Positions 4,877-7,230 of a DNA stretch of 22,872 nt are shown in pieces (within the stretch, counting starts at the first letter, position 1; each line of letters starts with the position of its first letter). The position numbers and the translations under genes were made by a program. Source of the DNA: a virus; IMG/VR virus record IMGVR_UViG_3300047546_001429, positions 1 through 22,872 of that record; one strand, given 5' to 3'. A model generated the notes under the pieces. The model saw nothing but the letters and a program-made list of their open reading frames with translations, was not told where the DNA came from and ran no database searches.

Positions 4877-4950
4877 CGCTCTCTTTTGGACTTGAACCAA
4901 AGACCCTCTGATTAACAGTCAGATGCTCTAACCAACTGAGCTAAGAGAGC
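4877..4950 (-). tRNA. tRNA-Asn(GUU), first tRNA after the terminator
   Basis: Acceptor GCTCTCT pairs with AGAGAGC. The anticodon stem TCTGA/TCAGA closes CTGTTAA, giving GUU. Its 5' end lies only 9 bases after the U-run of the terminator at 4959-4994. No promoter is visible between them, so the array from here on may depend on read-through or on a promoter I cannot see. Confidence 0.95.
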
Positions 4951-4958
4951 GTAAAATG

Positions 4959-4994
4959 AAAAAACCCCTAACTGATTTTATTCGGTTAGAGGTT
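4959..4994 (-). terminator. intrinsic terminator of the 6550-4959 transcript
   Basis: On the minus strand a 10-bp stem (4994-4985 with 4972-4963, one G-U) with a 12-base loop is followed at once by six T residues (4964-4959). It points toward the tRNA array. The plus strand lacks a T-run after the stem, so it works in the minus direction. Confidence 0.8.
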
Positions 4995-5025
4995 TCTAAA
5001 TATTGTTATAAAAATTATTACATTC

Positions 5026-5157
5026 TTATCCTACATCTGTGTCCTCTAACTTACCCGTATAATCCACTTCTTGTGAATTAAACATACAATTGCCCGCCCA
5101 AATCTTATTGCTAAGTTGCGGTAACAAACTAATCGTATGTAAGTTAAAGTTTTTCAT
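5026..5157 (-). CDS. possible 43-aa protein at the 3' end of the giant transcript
   Basis: ATG at 5157 opens a 43-codon frame that ends with TAA at 5026-5028, 32 bases before the terminator stem. The product begins MKNFNLHTISLLPQLSNK and ends DYTGKLEDTDVG; it has no membrane segment and I know no relative. The sequence just upstream is very A+T-rich (TTATATTTATATTCAG), with no Shine-Dalgarno sequence. Its codons end in G or C more often than those of neighbouring genes (ACG, CCG, GCG, GGC, GAC), which argues for caution. Position directly before a terminator favours a real gene; the alternative is chance within structured RNA. Confidence 0.4.
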   Translation of the reverse strand: MKNFNLHTISLLPQLSNKIWAGNCMFNSQEVDYTGKLEDTDVG

Positions 5158-5565
5158 CTGAATATAAATATAATTTTTTTATTTTTTAAGTAAGCTAATC
5201 TAACTTCAAAATACGCCATCCAAGTCATGCTCTGGTTAATATCAGCCTCGTCAAATTAGCCATTTTAAAAGAGAGAAAAAGGGAAACGGCTCTCTCAATG
5301 TAGTGGCCTACTACTTACACCGGCAATCATATCGTGTAGATTGCGTTTATTTATTGGTCTAAAACTTTCCCAAAAAACCGTATGTGTCTATTCCACCATT
5401 TTAGTTTAATTATTTTAGGTCGTCAAACTGCTTGTTTTTCGCACATATGAAGGCTATGCTTAACCGACCACGATATGTGAATAGTTCCAAAGGTTTTTTT
5501 GTTTATTTAAAGTCCTAACTGCTTCTATCTCACTATTCGAGCTTTAATGCAAACGGACTATTTTG

Positions 5566-5606
5566 TTTTACTATTGGAATCGAACCAATATGCAACCATT
5601 GTAAAA
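5566..5606 (-). other. tRNA-like T-arm/acceptor minihelix inside the giant RNA
   Basis: On the minus strand TATTGG-TTCGATT-CCAATA (5590-5572) is a perfect T arm with a canonical T loop. It is followed without a gap by GTAAAA (5571-5566), which pairs with TTTTAC (5606-5601). Only a 10-base linker (5600-5591) replaces the D and anticodon arms. There is no CCA. This is the geometry of a tRNA acceptor-T minihelix, or a T-loop tertiary module. Confidence 0.6.
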
Positions 5607-6554
5607 AATAAATGAGTGAGATTACCTCATTGGGAGCACCATCTTTAGTTGGATTATTTGTTTCCCAACCTATCCACTATCTTTTGAATAGTATCAGTGC
5701 AGTGTTGATGATTATAGATTATCAATCTTTGAGTTGTAAACTACTCTCTCTTTACTCCCCTTCTTCTACCCTGCCGAGCAGATTCATTCTTGCGGAACTA
5801 GAAGCTTTTCGAAAGAATCACAGACCTCTTGCGGAGGTATCGTGGCATTGAACGTCTCAATACTATGTAAACACCTTTCGTTCACAACTGATAGGCACTT
5901 ATGCTTGATTTAAAATTATGGTTTTCAATACCGCAATTGAAATTAAGTTTGTAGATGTGTTCAGGTAGCGGCCTATCAACCAGCTCCCCCACCTTTTGAG
6001 CGAGAGAATACTAAACTACCCGATGTAATATCGGATTACCATTTTTCAAGTTATCTTCATTTATACGGAATGGTGTCCATATAAAAGGATAATATCAGCA
6101 CCACCTGTTTTATTATCATACCTTACGTCCTTTCGGATAGCTTGGTTTTAAGATTACTCTTAAATTGAACACCGCAATAGTATAAAGTGATTAGCCTTAT
6201 ATTTCTTACTGATGTTCTATGGGTTATTCTTATTGTTCTTCCGAACTCAACCGAAGTATCTACTTACCCCGGTCATTCAAACTCTTCCGATATAGTGTTA
6301 CCCTTTCGTACAAAGCTCAAATGATATCCCACTTGCCTACTTAAGTTATTCTCTCCTTACGGGGAGAGTAACCGCAGAACATTTAAACGATTTGTTCCGC
6401 TTTATCCTACTTTCGTAGTTTATTTGACCACCATAGGCGGCGGTTGTTTACTATGTAGAACAAGTCTACTATGTAAAATATTTTCAATGTTTTAAAGAAC
6501 TAAAGTTTGAATACCGAGTATCTTTCATTGCCTTTAAGTTTCAAACTTATAACT

Positions 6555-6586
6555 CGAAGATACAACGTTTTTTTCAAACTGCCAAA
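6555..6586 (-). promoter_or_regulatory. Bacteroidota-type promoter of the giant RNA
   Basis: On the minus strand TTTG (6586-6583), 20 bases, then TATCTTCG (6562-6555), a slightly degenerate TAnnTTTG box. The predicted start near 6550 falls directly at the 5' strand of the first 8-bp helix of the non-coding region, which supports a dedicated transcript. Confidence 0.7.
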
Positions 6587-6605
6587 TTTTATTTGGACTT
6601 TTTTA

Positions 6606-6705
6606 TAACTCTTTGATTATCAATGAGTTAGATAAGATATCCGGCTTTCTTCCCTACTGGGTAGGTCACTCAATCGGTTTTATTATTGATGGCTTCAATC
6701 TTATC
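6606..6705 (-). ncRNA. structured trailer between tRNA-fMet and the giant-RNA promoter
   Basis: An 8-bp helix joins 6631-6638 with 6698-6705 (GATAAGAT/ATCTTATC). Inside it 6654-6658 and 6661-6665 form CCTAC/GTAGG. Next to it lies a hairpin AACTC/GAGTT (6607-6629) extended by TTGAT/ATCAA across one mismatch. No T-run follows on the minus strand, so it is not a classical terminator. It could be an RNase P/3'-processing trailer or a small stable RNA. Confidence 0.4.
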
Positions 6706-6710
6706 TTTTG

Positions 6711-6782
6711 TTGCGGCGGATGGATTCGAACCACCGACCCCAAGGTTATGAGCCTTGTGAGCTACCTCTGCTCTACGCCACG
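6711..6782 (-). tRNA. initiator tRNA-fMet(CAU)
   Basis: Acceptor CGTGGCG pairs with CGCCGCA except for C1 against A72, the hallmark mismatch of bacterial initiators that permits formylation and blocks EF-Tu. The anticodon stem CAAGG/CCTTG closes CTCATAA (CAU). Two of the three classical G-C pairs above the loop are present; the third is A-U. The T arm contains TTCGAAT. No CCA is encoded. Confidence 0.93.
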
Positions 6783-6806
6783 ATGTTGTTTGTTGTTATA
6801 TATATG

Positions 6807-6838
6807 TAAATATACAACAAAAGATTTAATTTTCCAAA
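6807..6838 (-). promoter_or_regulatory. Bacteroidota-type promoter upstream of tRNA-fMet
   Basis: On the minus strand TTTG (6838-6835), 20 bases, then TATATTTA (6814-6807). It lies between the tmRNA and the initiator tRNA and would start transcription near 6802, so tRNA-fMet can be expressed apart from the upstream protein operon. Confidence 0.7.
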
Positions 6839-6858
6839 TATTTTTGGATATTTTTTTT

Positions 6859-7230
6859 TGGTGGAGATGACGAGATTCGAACTCGTGTCTTACAAAGAAC
6901 TAATAATACCAGCATATCACACGTTTATTCAATTATTCACAATTGAAAAATAGATAAGTTTTATACATACATTATCATTATGTCACCCACTCTTATTTAA
7001 AGACTCAGCGAGAAGTAGTCCGATTGCACATTCTATTTAAAGTCCCATGATGTGTACGGGAGGGATTAGGCAGCTACTGCGTAATCCATACCTACGAATG
7101 CCATAAGGTCATCGTAAGTCATTGTTGACATTTCGTCATTTATTGTTTTGTACATAGTTTAAAGAGTTATAGTACATATCTCTACGTGTGGTACTACTAT
7201 TTACATTGCAATCAATTCCATAGCATCCCC
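6859..7230 (-). ncRNA. ssrA: tmRNA (transfer-messenger RNA), one-piece
   Basis: The 5' end GGGGATG (7230-7224) pairs with CATCTCC (6869-6863), followed by an encoded A-CCA. The 3' tRNA-like part has the T arm ACGAG-TTCGAAT-CTCGT, and the 5' part CTATGGAATTGATTG resembles the tmRNA D-loop region. Between them a short frame ends with GMDYAVAA and TAA (stop 7066-7068), clearly related to the YALAA-type degradation tags. The resume codon is uncertain: GTA at 7093-7095 would follow CATTC, similar to E. coli UAGUC, giving tag (A)VGMDYAVAA. tmRNA with SmpB rescues stalled ribosomes and tags nascent chains. It begins 13 bases after the AAA+ gene's stop. It is the only RNA here that encodes CCA. Confidence 0.93.

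Follow-up and report, generated by a model that had tools for sequence, protein, structure and literature searches.

A probable phage GOLLD transcription unit with a hairpin and boxA-like leader and a mosaic tail of conserved modules

What does a long stretch of phage DNA without long genes, lying between a tRNA-Met gene and a tRNA array, encode? The stretch in question is positions 4959–6550 of the window, by which we mean the whole virus record analysed here (22,872 bases), and an earlier note had read it as gene-free and as one structured RNA of about 1.6 kb, either GOLLD/ROOL-like or of a new class. We identify it, with a probability of roughly 0.85, as a phage GOLLD transcription unit on the minus strand, built from a leader of ~100 nt, a GOLLD body of ~833 nt, and a mosaic, GOLLD-bound tail of ~650 nt that is conserved in about 30 further phage contigs. 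Long genes are indeed missing: the longest open reading frame (79 aa) lies on the plus strand within GOLLD and was rejected because it overlaps conserved RNA. The tail, on the other hand, holds a conserved ORF of 43 codons (5157–5026), so the stretch is not entirely gene-free. Its GC content of 0.33–0.38 exceeds the 0.25–0.31 of the neighbouring genes, as had been remarked.

The gene content of the window is T4-like for replication (a DnaB-type helicase, a UvsX-type recombinase, a single-strand binding protein, and ribonucleotide reductase), and 24 tRNAs plus one tmRNA are present. The order tmRNA, tRNA-Met, GOLLD, tRNA array is identical in a relative, L010, and this synteny supports the suggested link to the tRNA/tmRNA set. 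The phage-encoded tmRNA (6859–7230, minus) has the tag DEMSTMTYDDLMAFVGMDYAVAA, and the tag in L010 is similar (DEMSTMTFADLMDFVGADLAIA); a second tmRNA was considered and rejected, with no Rfam match up to E=5. GOLLD of the same kind also occurs in two huge phage genomes of 635 and 642 kb. A scan of genome contigs returned two matches, both lacking GOLLD and one of them visibly in coding sequence, and thus the scan yielded no host genome carrying this type of GOLLD.

The identification of GOLLD itself is virtually certain. The Rfam model RF02032 matches the minus strand at 5613–6023 with 274.7 bits (gathering score 150, E 9.7e-78), spanning model positions 1–416 of 416. This model describes the conserved GOLLD 3′ domain only, and the 5′ domain lies outside it. 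The sequence upstream, 6024–6445 (minus, start approximate), is homologous to the 5′ domain of the GOLLD loci that we fetched, and the GOLLD body therefore extends from ~6445 to 5613, or about 833 nt. A motif of the 5′ domain, AAATAAACNNNGAAAGNNNNATAAAG, is found again in at least 120 stretches of viral contigs; the 3′ domain is present in 141 of 159 loci fetched with GOLLD-directed and core-element patterns, and about 140 homologous loci contain both domains. The folding energy of the GOLLD part is far below that of shuffled sequences (z −4.7; 0 of 20), and the two GAAA tetraloops noticed earlier cap hairpins of the 5′ domain (CTAC-GAAA-GTAG and ATCC-GAAA-GGAC). Rfam models singled out GOLLD: ROOL, OLE, and introns gave no match at the gathering score in the window, nor in 4950–6860 up to E=5, so that the broader GOLLD/ROOL-like assignment narrows to GOLLD precisely. 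The env-38 GOLLD, solved by cryo-EM as a hollow 14-mer cage, has the same size as the body in the window, ~833 nt (Kretsch et al. 2025, PMC12286853). A GC dinucleotide is kept in the window loop that we assign, by position only, to L21a of the kissing-loop bridge B8, the single kissing-loop palindrome examined, and GC is found there in 95 of 121 distinct relatives.

Transcription of the unit would begin at a promoter of the Bacteroidota type, TTTG-N20-TATCTTCG (6555–6586, minus), which had been predicted and which is a perfect consensus, TTTG-N20-TATCTTTG, at the equivalent site in L010. Directly 3′ of the promoter come a hairpin (6509–6546, minus), in which a near-invariant loop, AGG.GATGAAAGATACTCGGTAT, is held between paired arms that change together, as judged by eye, in 19 distinct GOLLD leaders, and the boxA-like box AGTTCTTTAA (6492–6501, minus), similar words being present in most GOLLD leaders. 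The boxA-like word is present in 120 of the 126 distinct GOLLD leaders compared, versus 1% when the zone is mononucleotide-shuffled, a frequency that reflects conservation and not independent gain because the leaders are related. The flavobacterial rRNA leaders that we fetched mostly carry AGTTCATTRACATATTG or near variants, close to but not identical with the GOLLD box: GOLLD has AGTTCTTTRA where the flavobacterial rRNA has AGTTCATTRA, an A to T change, and this comparison group may not be that of the host. The extended rRNA-type form is matched by only 32 of 130 GOLLD leaders. By analogy, the hairpin and box could point to antitermination of the rRNA or lambda nut kind, a reading that we hold tentatively and at somewhat less than even odds. 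Further upstream, between tRNA-Met and the promoter, lies another conserved element (6615–6700, minus), laid out as GAAGCCATCAA..AATAAAACCGATTGAGTGACC-hairpin-GGGAAGAAAGCCGGA within a variable outer stem and present in seven distinct upstream regions.

At the other end of GOLLD, the relatives fall into distinct patterns. Of 113 distinct loci, 54 have a terminator within 70 nt past the 3′ domain and give no tRNA signal, and 34 have a tRNA, a T-loop, or an armless tRNA-like hairpin in that place; only two of these 34 also give a terminator call, which may come from tRNA stems or from a terminator behind the tRNA. On inspection, about ten of the remaining 25 loci have degenerate tRNA-Gly-like or otherwise odd tRNAs. 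From this distribution across phages we infer two routes to the GOLLD 3′ end, termination or putative cleavage by RNase P/Z. Odd tRNAs directly behind GOLLD (L012 2900–3006; L013 2882–2955; L141, L146, L149, L152) show hairpins inserted into the D-loop, an anticodon loop of 6 nt, and non-canonical T-loops. In five other loci (L053, L084, L111, L130, L039), a short conserved piece, ACTAAATGGTGGAA..., sits between GOLLD and the terminator and resembles AAACTAAAATGGTGGAATAGAC inside the RNA X of the window, described below.

The window itself has the armless hairpin (5565–5607, minus), which contains several parts of a tRNA: an acceptor stem (7 bp in the family, 6 bp in the window copy), a D-loop-like AATGGTT with its GG, and a 5-bp T-arm whose TTCGATT loop fits TTCRANY. 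Over 14 distinct homologues, 99% of cells are paired and four of seven acceptor pairs are doubly changed, with 0 of 500 shuffles as good; such covariation indicates selection on the hairpin and not decay. Searched against 100 sources, its covariance model matches nowhere but behind GOLLD. The anticodon arm is absent in 14 of 14 homologues and so is CCA from the hairpin, which is therefore not a working tRNA, and neither ARAGORN nor RF00005 calls it. RNA processing at this hairpin is a possibility that we place just short of an even chance; with no CCA or anticodon arm and with an AU-rich acceptor stem, the hairpin may be a poor substrate for RNase P/Z.

Behind the hairpin, the tail continues with RNA X, then the core element, then a microORF, and finally a terminator; its RNA modules are very probably real conserved RNAs. 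RNA X (5261–5564, minus) is ~210–300 nt long in its family, with a shared core at 5473–5261 and a 5′ extension common to the window, L142, and L172. Eleven homologues support six helices, two of which form pseudoknots; their 27 pairs are 98% paired, and ten are doubly changed (0 of 500 shuffles as good); the helices were picked on this same alignment, which makes slid controls, reaching at most three doubly changed pairs, the fairer comparison. Divergent versions in L035, L082, and L138 were aligned and left out of these counts. RNA X has no Rfam match up to E=5, RF00023 included. All genuine matches to its pattern lie behind GOLLD; most extra matches (L160–L171, L173–L185) have no X sequence around them, look like chance hits in other genes, and were rejected.

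The core element (about 80 nt; 5194–5260, minus) is an 11-bp stem enclosing a near-invariant interior, AACC[AG]GAGCATGACTTG..TGG, and six of its 11 pairs are doubly changed over 26 distinct homologues, with 0 of 500 shuffles as good. Covariation of helices, asked for by the earlier note, is thus seen in the armless hairpin, the core element, and RNA X. The exact core pattern occurs in 32 places, and GOLLD lies just upstream in all but one, a chance coding match. A related motif, AACCAGnGCATGACnnGGAT, is found in the leaders of other GOLLD phages, behind a promoter and a boxA-like box and 37–41 nt before tRNA-Met; it precedes tRNA-Met in 36 of 36 loci with an ARAGORN tRNA within 300 nt, a count that leaves out 17 loci with no tRNA call and six that end too soon. 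The core covariance model also matches two tRNA-Met leaders, weakly (E 0.009 and 0.04). In the leader motif, for example at L004 7132–7157 and in 35 other loci, the n and n′ positions form pairs that covary (C-G, A-T, T-A).

X and core are each optional among relatives, and neither turned up apart from GOLLD among 2.9 million viral contigs, a search by exact patterns that miss divergent copies. The structure claimed for the whole stretch holds for GOLLD by folding energy but not for the tail, where X plus core show no free-energy excess over shuffles (z −0.5); pseudoknots may account for the missing signal. Since minimum free energy is silent on X and core, support for the tail comes from covariation.

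The microORF (5026–5157, minus; 43 aa, MKNFNLHTISLLPQLSNKIWAGNCMFNSQEVDYTGKLEDTDVG) has in-frame relatives of 22–53 codons. They come from 28 further loci, always behind GOLLD and on its strand, and share M[KR]..HT..W.G; the search pattern itself demanded that frame. In 86% of pairs dN is lower than dS, but variability at third codon positions only slightly exceeds that at the other two, so the microORF is likely, though not proven, to be coding; it has no Pfam or PHROG relative. A promoter-like box, TATATTTATA, lies ahead of it (5163–5172, minus), and TATATTTAT is about 15-fold enriched 20–30 nt ahead of the ORF starts of this clade, so separate transcription of the microORF is possible. Boxes of the form TATATTTATA or ATATTTATA stand ahead of phage genes at window positions 1288, 5172, and 17454 (minus) and are possibly a phage-specific promoter. 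The unit closes with the intrinsic terminator that had been proposed (4960–4994, minus), an 8-bp stem, a 12-nt loop that exceeds the limit of a generic scanner, and a T-run, placed past the microORF and ahead of the tRNA array; equivalents recur at the same place in relatives.

These parts suggest a sequence of events that can be only conditionally put forward. The promoter would start an untranslated transcript whose first ~60 nt are the conserved hairpin and the boxA-like box, and this leader could suppress termination over the structured, untranslated RNA as in rRNA operons. The GOLLD of ordinary size would then form a 14-part cage, as expected from homology to env-38, and would be freed from the downstream RNA at the armless hairpin, where RNase P and RNase Z might cleave its 5′ and 3′ sides, respectively; other phages have a complete tRNA or a terminator in the slot of the hairpin. 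The downstream RNA would carry RNA X and then the core element, and past these lie the tiny gene with its promoter-like box and the terminator before the tRNA array. Any role of the tail modules is conjecture. The full scheme, in which GOLLD is made in the manner of rRNA, antiterminated and cut at its 3′ end at a worn-down tRNA, and in which two RNAs absent from Rfam and a microprotein act with the cage or its tRNAs, is speculative and, taken as a whole, less likely than not.

The relation of the tail to GOLLD admits two further readings. GOLLD and tail might stay one RNA of ~1.5 kb, with the hairpin, X, and core as a 3′ extension, such as cargo or a handle of the cage, and the hairpin as an uncut T-loop/D-loop module. 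Such a fusion fits the lack of a terminator between GOLLD and X/core, the occurrence of the tail modules only behind GOLLD, and a hairpin that has lost the anticodon arm and CCA of a working tRNA; yet the same slot in relatives holds full tRNAs, which are normally excised, and most GOLLDs terminate right there and need no tail. We judge it unlikely, though deserving serious thought. Alternatively, the tail could be mere neighbourhood, consisting of decayed tRNA genes, a core serving as the leader of a microORF/tRNA operon, and X as a small RNA in its own right, with separate promoters and no tie to GOLLD function. The promoter-like box of the microORF, the core motif that serves as a leader element before tRNA-Met in other phages, and the optional nature of both X and core speak for this view, which is nonetheless doubtful: the acceptor-stem covariation of the hairpin bespeaks selection and not decay, and X and core never occurred apart from GOLLD among the contigs searched, as far as exact patterns reach.

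The idea that the whole stretch is a single giant RNA of a new class, 1.6 kb long, drew on the lack of long genes across the span and on its promoter and terminator, one at each end. It is extremely improbable and gives way before the full-length Rfam match and the roughly 140 homologous GOLLD loci, and before a tail that is modular and optional: the GOLLD body is of normal size, and the extra length comes from separate GOLLD-linked modules and the microORF.

With the stretch taken as a GOLLD transcription unit, GOLLD itself is already known, and the tail modules and the leader would be the new part. The tail modules are absent from Rfam 15, and we found no description of them, of the armless hairpin, or of the leader in the open literature naming GOLLD, a scope that does not include the original GOLLD description. 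We know of no function for GOLLD, a cage-forming RNA. Partners found only next to GOLLD and a leader similar to rRNA antitermination sites offer testable handles on the making, trimming, and use of the cage RNA, and a rule for GOLLD ends emerges in this phage group: a terminator or a tRNA(-like) element.

Several known systems resemble the unit in part. Like tmRNA (RF00023), it combines a short ORF with a nearby tRNA-like piece and pseudoknots, but the window already contains its true tmRNA, X and the hairpin are unmatched by RF00023, and the hairpin has no inserted mRNA-like domain. In the eukaryotic MALAT1/mascRNA pair, a tRNA-like element with a full cloverleaf lies behind a long non-coding RNA and directs 3′ processing by RNase P. 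Here too, the 3′ end of a long non-coding RNA could be set by the tRNA-like element that directly follows it, although this one is an armless hairpin, and the processing is only presumed. Phage nut/put sites and rRNA boxA leaders resemble the unit in that a long untranslated transcript opens with a hairpin and a boxA-like box, even though the GOLLD box differs from the flavobacterial rRNA box. ROOL is likewise a large phage RNA that lies near tRNA islands and forms a cage (PMC12286853), but the window lacks a ROOL match in Rfam. The closest likeness is to GOLLD as described for env-38 (PMC12286853): the window copy has the full 3′ domain, a homologous 5′ domain, and the same length, it is phage-borne, downstream of tRNA-Met and beside a tRNA array, and it keeps the conserved GC in the loop assigned to B8. 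It departs from that GOLLD in being followed by the armless hairpin, RNA X, the core element, and the microORF, and in having a visible leader of promoter, hairpin, and boxA-like box.
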